Source of the DNA: Antedon mediterranea
Lineage: Eukaryota; Echinodermata; Crinoidea; Comatulida; Antedonidae
Reading direction: 5' to 3'
DNA length: 64,000 nucleotides
NCBI RefSeq assembly: GCF_964355755.1
Contig: NC_092679.1
Coordinates: forward strand, 24,428,432 to 24,492,431
Shown: one piece after another, positions 32,101-64,000 of the stretch
Numbering within the stretch: position 1 is the first letter of the stretch
Layout of the letters: each line of letters starts with the position of its first letter
Translations under genes and position numbers: made by a program
The notes under the pieces: model-generated
What the model was told of the DNA's origin: nothing
The model's input: only the letters and a program-made list of their open reading frames with translations
Databases searched by the model: none

Positions 32101-35100
32101 ATGCCACGGTGCAATACATGTTGCACATATAACTGGTCAAAAAGATTGAATTTTAATTTGATTTTTAACATTCCATTTGTCATCATTGTGTAAAAATAAT
32201 GTTTTACCTTCTATTGTTTTTACTATTTATAAACTCTTAATACTTTCTTTAATCTAGACTTTTAAATGAATATATTTATAATATTTTTCAATATAAAAAA
32301 AATCCTCTTTTACAAACAAATATTGTATTATGTTTTCCTATTAATTGTTATTTTCAGTTGATTATTCCCCCGTGTTAACATGTCCATCAACTCAAATAAT
32401 ACCAATAACAAATGACGCAGAAGAAGTGATTGTGGATTACACGCCTGCTGGGGTTCAAGACTCGGAAGATCCTGGACTTACGGCCACTTGCCAACCACCA
32501 CCTTCCACTCTGTTTCCGCTAGGCAACACTACAGTGGTCTGTTCTGCAATTGATTCCATGAAAAACGTCGGAGAATGTCAATTTGATATCATTATCAAAG
32601 GTAATAACTGTTACATAAAAATAAAGGTATTCATCATCGTTCGCAAGCTTAACTGGAAACGGAGATAATTCTGATTATACTACTACAGCCAGTTCAGCGC
32701 CTACACAGATCAGTACACCTGTAGATGTTCCCCTACTATTTTTATTTATCTTTATATCTGAGAGTTATCATCAATGTCTTTTGTAAAAAATAGAAAAAAC
32801 GGCAATTACAATACACATACAGAATAAGCATAACAACACGTGATTTATGTATTTCAGTTGATTATCCCCCAAATCTCACATGCGGTTCGAATCATGAGTC
32901 ACCAACTGACGATGGGACATCAACGGCTAGCGTAGATTTCAAGTTAGCTTATGCGCATGACAAAGAGGATGGTGAACTTACTGCAATCTGCCAACCTCCG
33001 CCGTCAAGTTTGTTTCATATTGGCACTTCTCACGTGATCTGCTCTGCAACTGACTCCGTTGGTAATTCTGAACAATGCGGATTCAACATAACAATTCTAG
33101 GTAATACAACATACAATGGGTCTACACTCATGACATTTTTAGTACTATGTTTTACTTAAGTTATAATAATTCAATAAAGTATACATTTCACTATAATTTA
33201 TAATTTAGTGTCAATAGTACATTAACTGCAATATCCCATGAAAATATGCAATCTATGTTTTCGATGATGTCATTATGCAGATAACGAAGCACCAAAACTG
33301 ACCTGTTCATCTTTGGTTACCTTATTGACCAATCCTGGTGAAGCTACAGCTACGCTGCTTTACGATAACGCACTGGTCACTGATAATTCAGGAGAGGTAT
33401 TACAATCAGAGTGTACACCAGCTGTACCGGGGGTTCTGGGCATCGGAACGCATTCCGGATCATGTTTTGCTATCGATTCATCTAACAATCAAGGAACGTG
33501 TGATTTTCCAATCGAGGTTAAAGGTAAGGTAACAAAGATTACGCTAAAATAGTAAACAGTAGACCTATACATATATTTAAATAAGGTAAAATGAATATAA
33601 TAGTCTATTCTGTAATCTTGTTAGAATTCTTGTTTTGAATCGTTAACTCAGCTTTGAGTCAAATGTACAGTGAAATAGTGACTCTGGTTTGGACTACTGT
33701 CTTGTTGCTTTGCTATAATGTGCTGGCCCAGACCACATTACATGTTTAAAACTTGGCCTACAGTAGCTACATTTTGTACCTATTGAATATCAATGACGTG
33801 TGTGACGTAAATGAACATAACTGCAAGTTGCCTAACGACAAACGATAACAATTGATATTACAGACGGTAAATTGTCATGATAGTGGTGCCATCCGATATA
33901 TCCGGTTTTTTTTAAATGAAAAGTTTTAGTACTTTTAGAAACAATACTTAAAGTACAGTATTAGCAGAACATTCTAGTTAGACAATCTTCTGTTTTTCAA
34001 TCAATTTCAGATGAAGAAGATCCGGAAATCGTCTGTCCGGATTCGATAACCGTTGAGGCACCAGAGTCGGCAATATCAACAACTGTCAACTTCGACTTGC
34101 CGACTGTGCATGATAATTCAGCAACGAACATTATACCAACCTGTTCTTCTGAATCTGGAATGAACTTTTCGATAGGTGTTACCAAAATTGATTGTTTTGC
34201 AACAGACTCTTCAAATAATGAAAATGAGTGTACATTCGATATCACTGTTACAAGTTCAGGTATAGATAAAACCTTGACAGTAAAATGTAGCCTTATCTTA
34301 TAGCCCTTTCACATCACCTATATGAATTTCGAAAAGCGCACAAGAAACCTGGGAGGTCAATGGGAGGTCAACAGCGACGTTTTGTATGTGTGTGCGCACA
34401 AACCTGGGAGGTCAACAGCGGCGTTTTGTATGTGTATGCGCACAAACCTGGGAAGTCAACAGCGGCGTTTTGTATGTGTATGCGCACAAACCTGGGAGGT
34501 CAACAGCGGCGTTTTGTATGTGTATGCGCACAAACCTGGGAGGTCAACAGCGGCGTTTTGTATGTGTATGCGCACAAACCTGGGAGGTCAACAGCGGCGT
34601 TTTGTATGTGTGTGCGCACAAACCTGGGAGGTCAACAGCGGCGTTTTGTATGTGTGTGCGCACAAACCTGGGAGGTCAACAGCGGCGTTTTGTATGTGTG
34701 TGCGCACAAACCTGGGAGGTCAACAGCGGCGTTTTGTATGTGTATGCGCACAAACCTGGGAGGTCAACAGCGGCGTTTTGTATGTGTATGCGCACAAACC
34801 TGGGAGGTCAACAGCGGCGTTTTGTATGTGTATGCGCACAAACCTGGGAGGTCAACAGCGGCGTTTTGTATGTGTATGCGCACAAACCTGGGAGGTCAAC
34901 AGCGGCGTTTTGTATGTGTGTGCGCACAAACCTGGGAGGTCAACAGCGGCGTTTTGTATGTGTATGCGCACAAACCTGGGAGGTCAACAGCGGCGTTTTG
35001 TATGTGTGTGCGCACAAACCTGGGAGGTCAACAGCGGCGTTTTGTATGTGTATGCGCACAAACCTGGGAGGTCAACAGCGGCGTTTTGTATGTGTGTGCG

Positions 35101-38100
35101 CACAAACCTGGGAGGTCAACAGCGGCGTTTTGTATGTGTGTGCGTTGGGAGGTTTTTTAGATAATGTGAAAGGCAAACAAAACAACTCTTTATAATTCAC
35201 ACATTTATTTATCACTTTTTTATTATTTATTTTTACTGTTTTATGTATGTAACTGTTTTTATGAGCTCTGTATGTTAAGTATTTTAATTTGCCAATGCCA
35301 AAGAAAAATTCGAAAATTTATTGGACGAATAAATATAAATCTTATCTATCTTATAAATTCACAAAATATGTCGAGAACTTCTTTATAAGGCTTTTTTATT
35401 ATTATTTTGTGCATGCTCAATATATCATTGTAATCGTATTCGTCAAGTGAGTTATAATCTCTTTCTTGGTATTACCGCAGATATGATGATGTGTATATGC
35501 ATTCATAGTTTTTATCATACTTTTTATTTTTAATTTCAGGGTCAATCGAAGTTCCAGGTAAAATGTTTATTGCCATTTGTAGCTTTAGTGGCTAACTAAC
35601 TTTAACAAAACCCACCTCTAAATAGCAATACTAATACTTCCCCTTATCAGTCTCTGTCTTTTAAATGAGTCTGCTTCAAACCAGAATACATAATATTGTT
35701 TATCTGGACAAACATAGTAGAACACCTATGACCCTAACAACATATTCATTCGTTTGCTTCACGGAGTTGTAATTAGGTCCTTTGAATGTAAGGTGTGCTT
35801 CTCCTACAGTATAGTAATTAAAGTAATGTGACAGCCTTTCTTAATGGAGAGTGCTACCTCTTTAGGCTATTTTAAATAATAATGCACAATAAAGAAATAA
35901 ATTAAAAGATATGCCTAATAACTTACCAGTTCGTTATGCCTATATCCATTATTATGTTTAGTAATTTCTTGTAGTAATCTTAATACTTATTAAAAAATCT
36001 TAAAATGTTATTTGTAGCTATTGGTGGATGTGACGATAAAGAGGATTATTACTTTGGCTCTATCCAGTCTGAAAACTACCCAGGACCATATGAAAGAAAC
36101 ACCAACTGCCAATGGCAAATCGATGTATGCTTATACTAGTTGGCTCATTTGATTCACATTAATGTATTATGCAACTTGTGGCTGCCTAACATTTTGGTTT
36201 TTTTTAATTTGTATAATCTATTGTGTGGGCTAGGTGGACATACGGCGTGCCATAACTATATACAGTAATTGGGGGGAAAAGACGTAAAACGTAAAAAGAA
36301 ACAATTACTATAGAGAGCTTTTGGCTAACAGTAGTCTGGTTGAATAAAAAATGTGAACAAGGAAATTATATATTTTAAAAATCTGTGAGGGTATTTTGTC
36401 TATTTAATGGTTGTTACGTCAACATTATACTTAATAATACCCTCACACAAACACACATGACTAAAACATTAAAATTAAAAATAGTTTTATTAATTTATCT
36501 GATAGAAATAAACAAAAAAATAATTTTCTTAACAGGTACCAGATGGTCATTTTGCATACATGTGGTTTGAACGAACTGTGGACATTGAGGCATACATTTC
36601 TAACCAGATATATTGTTATGACTATATAACAATTAAAACATTTAAAAGAAATTTTATAAATATTCGTGTTTCGGTTGAAAACCAGTAAGTATTACTAAAC
36701 AATGTTGTTTTTGATCATCAAAATTAAAATGTAAACATTTTGTTTTCTTGATGTTAATTAACTAAGTCACAAGGTTCATTAAATTTAAGAAACTAATACA
36801 AAATAATATACTAATTAACTTTAATTATTTAATACAATATAATAGTTCTGCACTACTTTGTGCACATCACATTTTTTGTCACACAAAGTTTGATGGTGTA
36901 GATTACATAGAGCTTTAGATTACATTAGTACTATCTACCCAATAGTACTCTCTACTCATTAGTACTATCGACCCATTAGTACTATCTACCCATTAGTACT
37001 CTCTACCTATTAGTACTCTCTACCTATTAGTACTATCTACCCATTAGTACTATCTACCCATTAGTACTCTCTACCCATTAGTACTATCGACCCATTAGTA
37101 CTATCTACCCATTAGTACTATCTACCCATTAGTACTATCTACCCATTACTGAACATGTAATATTCACATGTTTCTATTAATTTTTTTGTTATTGTTGTTA
37201 AATATAATGCTTTACAACACACTTAATACGTCTAATACGTTTACAAAATTAAACTTTCATTTTTCGTTTACACAATTCGTTGCACGCAATGATTGAATAA
37301 TTTCGTATACAGTTTTAAGTAGTGGTTTATGTAAAAAAATGAGATTAACGTTTTTAAACTTTCTCTCAGCTACTGTGCACAACAACTGCCTGAAGATATT
37401 TCCACCAATGATGACATCATCATATATTTTACATCAGATGATACGTACCAATGGACGGGTTTCTCACTTAAATATAAAGTGCAACCTACTGAACCTCCAG
37501 GTAATAATGGGGGACGACTGTAATATGATAATTAGAAAGAAACTAATAGAATTGGAATTTTGATTCATTTTTTTTAAGACACAACTTAGATTATATTACA
37601 ACAATTAACTTTGCCAATTTGAATTTTAAGTTGCAAAATCTACAAACATAACATTTATAACATAATTTAACAGGTTTTTTAAACTTAAATATAAAGGAAT
37701 TAATATTGGAAAACTCCCAGATCTTGGTCTATTGACTTTTCTCATTTAGATAGAACCTCTAGATTCTTGTGATTTCATGTTAAATATTATTATTTACTTT
37801 AGCGTGGGACTCTTGGTCCGACTGGAGTGAGTGCAGTGCTACTTGTGGGTCTGGGTATAAGACACGTCATCGAGCTTGCTCAACATCCGATTGCATCGGT
37901 CACTCTACACAGGATTTATCATGTGACCTCAACAAATGCACAAATGGTAAATAGAAATTAATTATTCCAATTAATTATTCCAATTAACTAGAATCATTTA
38001 TTTGCAAAAATGGTTTCTTCTTTCTTTCGTTTTTCTTTCTTTTTTTTTTTTTGTTTTTTTTTTTTTTCTGTATTCTTTTTTTTTCTGTCTTCTTTTATTT

Positions 38101-50800: not shown

Positions 50801-53800
50801 GTTTTTTAATACATAAAATTGCATATAAATACAATAAAGAGTAGTTGAGACAAGATATTTCAAGCCACAATTCATCATAAGAATACACCTGCTAAGGAAA
50901 ATACAACATCTGATACGGAAAAGGGGGACTCTGAAAATTGCCAACTGAAATGGAACGGTAAATTAATAATTAAATCATCAGAAAGACTTTAATTTTGACC
51001 CAACCCAGGATATTAAAAATATAGCAAATGAAGATAACCCTGAATTAATAGGACAACATTTGCGATCGTGATATTTTGAAAATTATGATTCAAATAATGA
51101 TTTTAATATTTCTTTGTCATTCTAGTCTCTAGAATATTACGTCATTCTTGGAACAAATCAATGAAATTAATAGGTCTATGTTCTAATACTAACGTTGCTG
51201 AAAATGAGAACACGTTGAATGCTTATTTACCAAAATGTATTAAAATTTATTTTTCACATCAGATAAAATCTGAGATAACTATCTTGAAAATATTCTTTTT
51301 TTCAAACCAATAATTAGTAAAAACTAACCTTGACAGTTTCGCTGTCCTGATCGGGCAGCTTCTTCAGAAATAATGACGATCTGTCATCAAACAGACTGAC
51401 CTCTAGAGGGCCTATTCTGTTTAATGACAGGACAGCGAAACTGTCAAGGTTAGTTTTTACTAATTGTTGGTTTCAAAAAAAGAATATTTTCAAGATACTT
51501 ATACCTACAAACCAGATGAACATTTTCAATCAATATAGATAACTACTTTAATTGCGTGGCATTGTGTTTGTATTGAAGAAAAATTTTAAATTACTGTATT
51601 GTTTCCGAATAAGATTGGGGTTCTTGGTCTGAATGGGGTGACTGCAGTGCTACTTGTGGTACAGCAACCAAGACTCGTAGCAGAGAGTGCACAACCACTG
51701 ACTGTATTGGTGACAGTACAGAAGAATTGTCATGTGATCTAGATGGATGTTCAAATGGTACGTATAACGGCATCGTATTTCTGTGATAAGATTAGCATTC
51801 TCTGGACACGATAGACTATTAGGCCTATAATAGACATTTATTCGTCAGGAGCTCAACTCACTCCTAATGCTATTCAATAAGGTAGCAGAATACGACTACT
51901 GAACAATTCATGTTTGCTGCATGGATTAGCTACGAAAAGCATATTAGTGGCCTGGTATAACGCATTATTTACATTATGTGTTTTATTAGCCTTATGTGAT
52001 GTCGCATTTCCTGCTAATGACTGGGAAAAGTACACAATGTTGCTTTTCTTCATTACCAAGTTAACAAAAGTTAAACTACTGTCCAACATTTCAAATTAAC
52101 TTACAACATAGCATACCAGCATTACCGTTAACAACCTTTTAAAATGCTAGACAATGTATTGTTTTACACATAGTGGGGTTCTTGGTCTGTTTACCTATAC
52201 ATAATATATTAATTGATGTACTGTTCTTATACAGAGTGGGGTTCTTGGTCTGAATGGAGTGACTGCAGTGCCACTTGTGGTACAGCAACCAAGACTCGTA
52301 GCAGAGAGTGTGCAACCACTGACTGTACCGGTGACATTACGGAAGAAACATCATGTGATCTAGATGGATGTCCAAATGGTACGTATAATGGCATCGTATT
52401 TCTGTGATACCAGATAAAAATTGCCATTCAAAGTATATTATTAGCTGCCTTTCATTTTGTTTGCTTTTCTGTTATTACTACTATTATTGTTTTACTACAT
52501 TTACCCTTATATATTTTTTTTTTTACCATTGTTGAATAAATGTTATTAAACATTGAACGTTTCAAATACTAGCTATTGTATTCTTCTTATACAGAGTGGG
52601 GTTCTTGGTCTGAATGGGGTGACTGCAGTGCCACTTGTGGTACAGCAACCAAGACTCGTATCAGAGAGTGCGCAACCATTGACTGTATTGGTGACACTAC
52701 GGAAGAATTGTCATGTGATCTAGATGGATGTCCAAATGGTACGTATTATATTGTTAATTAAAAAAATGTGTGACAAGCAATTTGTTTTCTTTTTAACTCT
52801 CTGTGAGTTAAATACAGACCAGACATACGTCATTTAGAATTGTCAACATAGTTACATTTTCAATCTTATTGTCTGTATTATTGAAGATAAAATTAGTTGT
52901 TTATAGACCGCAGATAAATATTCCTTATTTTTTAGATGCTATAGGTTTAAGCACGAATTAAAACCTATAAAATAAAATTCAAATGAATAATAAAATTTTA
53001 TTTTAAACTTTTCATGATGATTCTATACATACTAGATAATAATACTGTTCTTATACAGAGTGGGGTTCTTGGTCTGAATGGGGTGACTGCAGTGCTACTT
53101 GTGGTACAGCAACCAAGACGCGTAGCAGAGAGTGCGCAACTAATGACTGTATTGGTGACACTACGGAAGAATTGTCATGTGATCTAGATAGATGTCCAAA
53201 TGGTACGTATATTATATTGGTAATTAAAAAATGTGTGACAAGCAATTTGTTTTCTTTTTAACTCTCTGTGAGTTAAATACAGACCAGACATACGTCATTT
53301 AGAATTTTCAACATAGTTACATTTTCAATCTTATTGTCTGTATTATTGAAGATAAAATTAGTTGTTTATAGACCGCAGATAAATATTCCTTATTTTTTAG
53401 ATGCTATAGGTTTAAGCACGAATTAAAACCTATAAAATAAAATTCAAATGAATAATAACATTTTATTTTAAACTTGTCATGATGATTCATTACATACTAG
53501 ATAATAATACTGTTCTTATACAGAGTGGGGTTCTTGGTCTGAATGGGGTGACTGCAGTGCTACTTGTGGTACAGCAACCAAGACTCGTAGCAGAGAGTGC
53601 GCAACAACGGACTGTATTGGTGACACTACGGAAGAGACATCATGTGATCTAGATGATTGTCCAGGTAAATGATGCTCAAGGTAGTATATTATTTAAATAA
53701 TATACTACATTTTAAAAATATACTACTGACTATTATTTTTTGGAAAATAACTGACTATTATGTTTATGAATTATTACATCTTCCATTCTGGTGTCGTTGT

Positions 53801-60375: not shown

Positions 60376-62555
60376 GAAAAAGTATCGACTTAAAATTCAA
60401 TTATTATGCAATAATATTGCCATATATGCGCATATATTGCGTTATCATCATCGTATAGTAGAGTCATAGTAACCAGTTTTGTCAAAAAATAAAAAGCTCG
60501 AAATTTGGCCATTTTTCGAAAATTTTCCTGTACTATAAAATGGCCAATTTTTGACCTTTTTATTTTTCGATAAAACTGGTTACTATAGCACAATTAACAT
60601 GCGCAGAACCCATTATTCGTCTCTGCGCATTAAATGTCAAAAACTAAAAGGGTCGAAAATCGGCCATTTTTCAAAAATTTTCGACCCTTTTATTTTTTGA
60701 CATAAATGGTTACTATTGCATAATAAACATGCGCAGAGACGAATAATGGGTTCTGCGCTTGTCAATTGTGTTATCATAACCATATTTGACATAAATGGTT
60801 ACTATTGCATAATAAACATGCGGAGAGGCGAAAAATGGGTTCTGCGCATGTCAATTGTGCTATAGTAACCAGTTTTATCGAAAAATAAAAAGGTCGAAAA
60901 TTTGCCATTTTTTGAAAAATCCTTGTACTATAGTACAGAGAAATTTTCGAAAAATTGCCGATTTTCGACCCTTTTATTTTTTGACATAAATGGTTACTAT
61001 TGCATAATAAACATGCGCAGAGACGAATACTGGGTTCTGCGCATGTCAATTGTGCTACAGTAACCAGTTTAGACATAAATGGTTACTATAGCATAATAAA
61101 CATGCGCAGAGGCGAATAATGGGTTCTGCGCATGTCAATTGTGCTATAGTAACCAGTTTTATCGAAAAATAAAAAGGTCGAAAATTTGCCATTTTTTTGA
61201 AAAATCCCTGTACTATAGTACAGGAAAATTTTTGAAAAATTGCCGATTTTCGACCCTTTTATTTTTTGACAGAAATGGTTACTATTGCATAATAAACATG
61301 CGCAGAGGCGAAAAATGGGTTCTGCGCATGTCAATTGTGCTATAGTAACCAGTTTTATCGAAAAATAAAAAGGTCGAAAATTTGCCATTTTTTGAAAAAT
61401 CCCTGTACTATAGTACAGGGAAATTTTCGAAAAATTGCCGATTTTCGACCCTTTTATTTTTTGACATAAATGGTTACTATTGCATAATAAACATGCGCAG
61501 AGACGAATACTGGGTTCTGCGCATGTCAATTTTGCTATAGTAACCAGTTTTATCGAAAAATAAAAAGGTCGAAAATTTGGCATTTTTTGAAAAATCCCTG
61601 TACAGATACGAAATTTTTTTTTTAAATCCCTGTACAATAGTACAGGGAAATTTTCAAAAAATTGCCGATTTTTGACCCTTTTATTTGTTGACATAAATGG
61701 TTACTATTTCATAATAAACATGCGCAGAACCCATTATTCGTCTCTGTCAATTGTGCTATAGTAACCAGTTTTGACATAAATGGTTACTATAGCATAATAA
61801 ACATGCGCAGAGTCGACTAATGGGTTCTGCGCATGTTAATTGTGCTATAGTAACCAGTTTTATCGAAAAATAAAAAGGTCGAAAAATGGAAATTTCTTCG
61901 AAAAAATCCCTGTACTATAGTACAGGGAAATTTTCGAAAATTGTTTTTCATGTTTCTTGTATTTTTACTTTAGTTTTAAGTATTAATTTAAGAGAGAGAA
62001 TATTCAATAATAATATAATTACGGTGTTCACATAGTCTCTCTCCAGGGTATTTAATTCTAAAAATTCCAGAAATAAAATTAATACGCTAATAATAACTAA
62101 ACAAGTTTAAGTGAGTATTGAATAAAATAATTATTGACAATTATTCGTAGGGCAGTACCAAATTATTTTATGTTTCCTATGATAATATGTGTTAATATGT
62201 CATTTGAGTGAGTCTTTCATGGCATTTGTAGTTGAGTTAGTCTTTGGTGACAATAGTAACACACACTTGTAATTGAGTGGTATTTTGATTTTTAAATTTC
62301 ATATTTCTAGTTAAAATGTTGAATATCTGAATATACCACAAGGTGTATCATTCCCTAAATAGCCCAAAAAGCTAAAAAAAAGTGATTTTTTTTTTAAATG
62401 TGTCAGTTGAGTCGCTCTTTCATGACAGGGCAGTATAGTACAGGGATTTTATCAAAAATTGTCAAAATATCGACTTATAGAAATTCAATCATTATGCCAT
62501 AATATTGCCATATATGCGCATACATTGCGTTATTATCATCTTATAGAGTCGTAGT
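60376..62555. repeat. Hairpin satellite array flanked by direct repeats
   Basis: Repeated block: CTATAGTAACCAGTTTTATC, GAAAAATAAAAAGGTCGAAA, a palindrome centred on CCCTGTACTATAGTACAGGG, the complementary GATTTTCGACCCTTTTATTT, ACATAAATGGTTACTATTGC, and ATGCGCAGAG...CTCTGCGCAT-type sequence. Blocks recur at about 60862, 61142, 61342, 61542 and 61852. About 95 bases (TGCCATATATGCGCATA... to GTAGTAAC/CATAGTAAC) are repeated directly at both borders (60380-60476 and 62464-62555). Long open frames on either strand are artefacts. Confidence 0.85.
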
Positions 62556-62669: not shown

Positions 62670-64000
62670 TTAGCCTGTTTGAATAGTATTTTTTATCCAA
62701 TTGACATAGTTTTCAACCCGAGTGTAAACACCATAAAAACCAGGTTTGGCACAACCGTTGCCCCAGGATACAATTCCATGTACAAAATAAGCCAGGTCAT
62801 AATTTCTAAACATCAAAGGCCCACCGCTATCACCTCTACATGCATCTTTGCCTCCTACATGAAGTAAAAAAGTATGATAATATTGTTACTGTTGTCTAAC
62901 CTAACAACTGTTGATAACTTAGTGACAACAACAACAAATACAAAACATTGGTCAATAGTTTAGTTTTCAAATAAGTAGGATTTTTTTTCATTCAGAGGTT
63001 GATTCTCTTTATGTTTAACATTTACTTGTATAACTTTCGAATTTAGCTCCATTCTACATTTATAACCAAACAAACCATTACAAATGACATGGTAACGTAA
63101 TGAGGATTGACCGAACAACACACACACACACTACTGTATTCCTACAGTATCCAAGATTCTCAATAACTGGTTAGATTTATTATGCGTTAGCTGGGTTTTA
63201 GTTACACTAGCTGGAAGGAATGTATTCGATCAGATGATAGTTTCTTTTCTTAGAGTTTCTATAAGTAAAGGCCTATTATAAGAATATAATTGGCCTGTAC
63301 ATTGTGTTTAAATAATATCTTATCTCTAATATTGTGTTGTAAATAAATTAATCTTACCATGTCTTTCTCCTGCACACACCATGTTTTCAGTGACTTCTAC
63401 CGGTGGTCGGAACGCATCATCACAAGTGTTTCTTGAAACAAGTGACACGTATACCTCGCGTAAGTAATTCGAAGTGCTATGATACACGGACATTTCTCCC
63501 CAACCAATTACAACACCTTTCATTGATGGTGCATCAGCGTGGTCAACATTGGCTTTATTGTTATCAGTTGTGTTACTTTGTTCAGGTAGACAGATAGGAC
63601 GTATTACACGGGAAAATTGAACTGATTGGTTTAGTTTGATAAGAGCTATGTCAGCATCAAATGCAGCGTTCACGTCGAATTGAACTGATTGGTTTAGTTT
63701 GATAAGAGCTATGTCAGCATCAAATGCAGCGTTCACGTCGAATTGAACTGATTGGTTTAGTTTGATAAGAGCTATGTCAGCATCAAATGCAGCGTTCACG
63801 TCGAATTGAACTGATTGGTTTAGTTTGATAAGAGCTATGTCAGCATCAAATGCAGCGTTCACGTCGAATTGAACTGATTGGTTTAGTTTGATAAGAGCTA
63901 TGTCAGCATCAAATGCAGCGTTCACGTCGAATTGAACTGATTGGTTTAGTTTGATAAGAGCTATGTCAGCATCAAATGCAGCGTTCACGTCGAATTGAAC
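62670..64000 (-). CDS. Gene 4: trypsin-like S1 serine protease, C-terminal part
   Basis: Minus-strand exons 64000-63358 (continues beyond the window) and 62854-62670 (stop TAA at 62672-62670). The first carries repeated DADIALIKL (catalytic Asp), [18 protein letters not shown] and MVCAGERHG. The second carries [14 protein letters not shown] (catalytic Ser; Asp six residues before it predicts Arg/Lys specificity), [20 protein letters not shown] and VENYVNWI. The catalytic His and the activation site would be in exons right of 64000. Convergent with gene 3. Oddity: the Asp segment is tandemly repeated in frame. By family: secreted endopeptidase. Confidence 0.9.
62855..63357. other. Intron of gene 4
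   Basis: Bounded by GTAAG donor (63357-63356, minus strand) and TAG acceptor (62856-62855). AT-rich with a short CA run at 63118-63131. Confidence 0.8.
63615..64000 (-). repeat. 63-bp in-frame tandem repeat in the protease exon
   Basis: Six identical 63-base units up to the window edge, each encoding [19 protein letters not shown] plus DV. Only the unit nearest the C-terminus leaves the repeat, into [10 protein letters not shown]. The unit number may be larger since the window ends inside the array. Confidence 0.95.

Follow-up and report, generated by a model that had tools for sequence, protein, structure and literature searches.

The stretch of DNA analysed here, called the window below, comprises 64,000 nucleotides of the crinoid Antedon mediterranea (C10:24428432-24492431; GC 33%). 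At its right end the minus strand encodes the 3´ part of a trypsin-like S1 protease gene that continues past the window. Read along the minus strand, the locus consists of four B-A pairs of F5/8C domains, one exon that joins CCP1, CCP2, the start of the protease domain (SP) and the catalytic His57, and then an Asp102 exon and a Ser195 exon. Exon limits were inferred from homology together with GT/AG sites. The F5/8C block and the CCP-SP part are treated as one putative gene, their phase-1 splice phase being compatible by inspection. The features are the following, with window positions unless the contig is given:

62670..62854, minus strand: Ser195 exon, ending in KNTIQTG and the stop codon; D189 and S195 assigned by homology
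62855..63357, minus strand: intron between the Asp and Ser exons, GT...AG, from comparison with the paralog exons
63358..64000, minus strand: Asp102 exon of the S1 protease domain, 3´ part, from paralog exon C3:9627059-9627430
63615..64000, minus strand: part of the repeat array within the window, from TRF and reading of the sequence
63615-63618, minus strand: terminal 4-bp remainder AATT
63619-63681, 63682-63744 and 63745-63807, minus strand: full units 1 to 3
63808-63870, 63871-63933 and 63934-63996, minus strand: full units 4 to 6
63997-64000, minus strand: 4 bp of the seventh unit
C10:24502983 to 24495371, minus strand: eight F5/8C domains in four tandem pairs

The Asp102 exon has its GT donor at 63357 and its 5´ end at the equivalent of 64219 (C10:24492650). 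The initial annotation had proposed extending the sequence to the right to find the His exon and the true left end, and both were found there, the His exon carrying TAAHCL. The S1A motifs TAAHC (His57), DIAL (Asp102) and GDSGGP (Ser195) follow each other in order, the Pfam Trypsin match has an E value of 1.1e-72, and none of the three SP exons contains a stop or a catalytic substitution. D189 and GDSGGP had already been read in the C-terminal part, and the Ser exon indeed carries D189 and S195.

Within the Asp102 exon, TRF reports a 63-bp unit in 6.1 copies at window positions 63615-64000, with 100% matches, 0 indels and a score of 772, a periodicity far beyond chance. Reading past the window, we found that the complete array consists of nine identical units (567 bp) plus the 4-bp remainder AATT and has its right end at C10:24492616, the equivalent of window position 64185. 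Six of the nine units lie in the window and the other three in the next 185 bp, so that the unchanged unit in at least six in-frame copies described before proved to be part of something larger. The minus-strand translation runs through the array in a single open frame with 21 residues per unit. As 63 is divisible by three, the frame is kept open without any need for selection. A whole-genome pattern search allowing up to 3 mismatches (354 Mb, 18 contigs) matched the nine places of the array and no others, which rules out a source copy of the unit elsewhere in the genome. The array is what is expected of a coding minisatellite, namely tandem units of 10-100 bp that are exonic, in frame and absent from the paralogs. 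Where an S1A protease has a single contiguous Asp102 strand between its His and Ser halves, this gene has nine copies.

Two relatives of the gene are located on contig C3, and each contains one unit. The first, C3a (about C3:9623400-9628194), has the order CUB, calcium-type EGF, CUB, CCP, CCP, SP of the MASP/C1r/C1s group, and every exon examined has an open frame. Its Ser195 codon is AGC, its protease domain is spread over several exons and the Cys42-Cys58 cysteines of the histidine loop are present. In a survey of complement genes this domain order was given for the MASPs of vertebrates, cephalochordates, urochordates, echinoderms and coelenterates (PMC11312191). The second relative, C3b (C3:9632377-9634076), is broken by a 4-bp insertion in the region of the His57 codon and by a TAA that interrupts the frame of its Asp exon. 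It is a tandem MASP-type pseudogene, and directly upstream of it a LINE-like reverse-transcriptase remnant and a poly-A run were noticed by eye. Between C3b and C3a, dS is 0.09 for the Asp exon and 0.53 for the Ser exon; the far greater closeness of the Asp exon suggests gene conversion.

The gene on C10 shares with the MASP/C1r/C1s proteins a CCP1-CCP2-SP part, which is homologous to the intact gene of the same genome, and D189, the residue of the trypsin-like specificity pocket. It differs from them in lacking CUB-EGF-CUB, in having eight F5/8C domains ahead of the CCP modules, in a frameshift in CCP2 and in its nine Asp102 segments. Homology to C3a begins about 95 bp before CCP1, and the F5/8C domains, which resemble clusters on C2 and C1, lie ahead of that point; for this reason the gene appears to be chimeric, with its junction in the intron that precedes CCP1. 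The F5/8C module pairs are 95-98% identical to each other, introns included.

Compared with C3a and C3b, 16 bp are missing from CCP2 in the exon that also encodes His57. The deletion lies upstream of the catalytic His and shifts the frame, so that CCP1 and the first part of CCP2 share one frame and the rest of CCP2 and the protease are in another. In the protease frame the first stop upstream is located 21 bp before the deletion, and a search for an in-frame ATG before His57 found none. The F5/8C block is also affected: an identical, out-of-frame 1-bp deletion is present in two of the four B modules (the first and the third), which are about 95% identical to each other. Measured against the intact paralog, the locus carries the disabling mutations of a pseudogene (16 bp in CCP2, 1 bp in each of two F5/8C modules). 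As assembled, the gene is predicted to be unable to yield a protease via standard splicing. The earlier description of the domain as otherwise normal is not supported, as the His57 exon and the part of the gene that precedes it are in different frames. An inactive allele, one of the options offered at that time, is now favoured, with the CCP2 frameshift as independent evidence. Because the frameshift upstream blocks the standard product, an array that stays in frame says nothing about function.

Relaxed selection would bring dN/dS near 1, and this was not found. Between the C10 gene and C3a, dN is 0.13, dS 0.47 and dN/dS 0.27 (pairwise, 390 codons, one unit counted), a ratio indicating purifying selection during most of the divergence of the two genes. 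A pseudogene is compatible with this value only if the break is recent; the break may be recent or limited to this haplotype.

The same ratio, together with the intact SP residues, is what can be said for a protease that still works, in which one unit would serve as the segment 94-113 with Asp102 and the other eight (168 residues) would loop out. Such a loop-out, at the 99 loop or in the 110s loop, would alter specificity or binding, and the copy number might vary between individuals. Alignment to chains of factor XI and TMPRSS6 places the unit at about residues 93/94-113, with both ends in surface loops; the chymotrypsin numbering is the one we take to apply to this family. The unit would hold the 99 loop, the Asp102 strand and the beginning of the loop that precedes residue 114. 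Its limits in the loops flanking the strand suggest that any unit could complete the barrel, and the surplus units would leave at 113/114 if the first unit is used and at 93/94 if the last one is. A long insert in the core of the beta-barrel, as had been assumed, is not what this alignment points to; the surplus would loop out at the surface, at the 99 or the 110s loop. We nevertheless consider a working protease, along with its proposed effects on specificity and its variable copy number, very unlikely, since a frameshift lies upstream of His57 in the same exon, further frameshifts lie in the F5/8C modules and there is no in-frame start.

Structure prediction does not help this reading either. 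AF2, given the exon piece of the window with six units as a single sequence, returned an all-beta repeat with a block-mean pLDDT per unit of about 72-97 and values below 50 for the rest, and a Foldseek search with this model gave no PDB match at E<=0.001. For random sequences repeated perfectly, AF2 is known to predict beta-solenoids that are confident but unrealistic (PMC11795689). Because of this bias and the missing fold match the model was set aside as structural support, and its confident beta strands do not speak for a functional fold. The array might rather be used as a test case for the bias of AF2 towards confident beta structure on perfect repeats.

It might also be possible that the protease is expressed, either through splicing that bypasses the frameshift or from a haplotype that is intact; any of the nine Asp102 strands would then complete the barrel and the others would form a length-polymorphic loop. 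In-phase cryptic AG acceptors do exist downstream of the 16-bp deletion, for example at C10:24493910, and the SP frame could in principle be regained in a form without CCP1 and the greater part of CCP2, but such a form is unlikely to be made. Expression of this kind is hardly to be expected. If it did occur, the gene would be a natural repeat-register experiment in a protein fold.

The sequence around the unit points to the way in which the array may have arisen. The ancestral segment has AATT at either end (..CATCCAAAATTCGACG.. and ..CAGTTCAATTTTCCCG..), the two tetranucleotides being 63 bp apart. In outline, the slipped-strand model of minisatellite birth has a short repeat at both ends and an incomplete terminal unit (Taylor & Breden model, PMC3389668). 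Birth by slippage fits the array because of its AATT flanks and the 4-bp AATT partial unit at its end.

The units do not differ at any position. With 0 differences in 567 bp, change per site per copy is at most 0.005 (95% upper bound), which limits the age of the array to about 2% of the per-lineage synonymous divergence from C3a if all sites are used and to about 10% with synonymous sites only. Judged by this identity the expansion is very recent, and the earlier proposal stands that the Asp102 segment of a trypsin-like domain expanded very recently and in frame. Since homogenisation by exchange would also keep units identical, the bound applies to the last spread of the array, whose birth may be older.

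Nothing in the sequence fixes the order of the array and the frameshifts. The array could have grown in a functional gene and inactivated it, the long insertion causing misfolding, with the frameshifts following later, a course of events that differs in order alone. An array without differences indicates a very young last spread, whereas the 1-bp frameshift of the F5/8C modules had time to appear in two modules whose identity to each other is about 95%. We regard the array as the cause of inactivation as unlikely.

Identical units are also what an assembly or consensus error could leave behind. In that case the individual would have one or a few units and the nine-unit array would have been made during assembly; the frameshifts of the locus, one of which lies in a homopolymer run, could likewise reflect consensus errors. 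However, a nine-fold exact 63-bp repeat with clean AATT junctions would be unusual for haplotypic or kilobase-scale misassembly, 567 bp is short relative to long reads, and the array is present at one place in the genome only. In addition, the 16-bp deletion is in sequence that is both unique and free of homopolymers, and C3a is an intact paralog. An artefact is accordingly quite improbable.

The explanation we prefer, with a probability of roughly three in four, is a minisatellite born in a coding exon of a MASP-derived duplicate that very recently reached nine units, in a gene that is already broken in the assembly. A MASP-type gene (CUB-EGF-CUB-CCP-CCP-SP) would have been duplicated and its CCP-CCP-SP part placed downstream of an F5/8C block, with homology starting in the intron before CCP1. 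The copy would then have been held under purifying selection for most of its history before it gained frameshifts, losing 16 bp in CCP2 and 1 bp in an F5/8C module from which the loss was copied to a second. Slippage between the two AATT, 63 bp apart, would have duplicated the segment for residues 93/94-113, and we infer that further slippage or unequal exchange led from two to nine units. The frameshifts and the array may have come in either order. This explanation is supported by the array with its AATT ends, the single-unit paralogs, the frameshifts, the low dN/dS and other minisatellites nearby. Counted against it are the intact SP exons, the exact multiple of three in the array and the cryptic in-phase acceptors. 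The 16-bp frameshift could be limited to the sequenced haplotype, and the array is probably length-variable.

Events of this kind are known. Most of the variable internal tandem repeats of duplicated human genes are minisatellites, half of the repeats lie in coding exons, and the average unit is 30 bp x 4 (De Grassi & Ciccarelli 2009, PMC2812944). Like these repeats, the crinoid array is a minisatellite expanded in a coding exon of a duplicated gene, with a single unit in the paralogs and the frame kept by a multiple-of-three unit. It differs in that its unit lies in a catalytic domain and contains a catalytic residue, in the frameshift upstream and in its size of 63 bp x 9, known here from one assembly. 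The locus is best read as a very recently expanded coding minisatellite of an ordinary kind, within a chimeric MASP-type duplicate that broke recently, and it does not look like a novel type of enzyme; such events are known (PMC2812944). What is unusual is only the catalytic residue in the unit.

With factor XIa, MASP-1 and TMPRSS6, S1A proteases of the PDB, the gene has in common, at the level of sequence, the R-IYGG activation site, His57, Asp102, Ser195, D189 and the cysteines that form the Cys42-Cys58 disulfide. We know of no trypsin-like S1A protease in the PDB with a tandemly repeated Asp102 strand. A literature search for a tandem repeat inside a serine-protease domain, or for an internal duplication like that of haptoglobin, returned no direct precedent, which does not prove absence. 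The significance for biology at large is minor. The locus is a clean example of a young minisatellite in a catalytic exon: its paralogs have a single unit, the microhomology at both ends is intact and no decay is seen. It also warns against taking an open frame across a repeat as evidence of function when there is a frameshift one exon upstream.

Minisatellites are abundant around the locus. About ten other arrays (period >=10, >=4 copies) with 77-98% identity were found in approximately 124 kb from two loci, and among all of these the 63-bp array is the only perfect one. A 31-bp minisatellite with 19 copies and 97% identity is located between the last F5/8C module and CCP1 (L005 3785-4376), and a 44-bp minisatellite with 17.8 copies and 98% identity at window positions 34361-35144. 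A 465-bp unit occurs in 2.3 copies with 95% identity at 52584-53663, and its consensus appears thrombospondin type-1-like by eye (YTEWGSWSEWGDCSATCG). Repeats of 89, 195 and 284 bp with a palindrome-like CATGCGCAGA...TCTGCGCATG fill window positions 60677-61603, possibly as a MITE-like tandem array. Elsewhere in the genome, at C6:24192878-24236352, eight CUB matches of the same score and length are spaced about 5-10 kb apart, which suggests a very recent tandem gene amplification.
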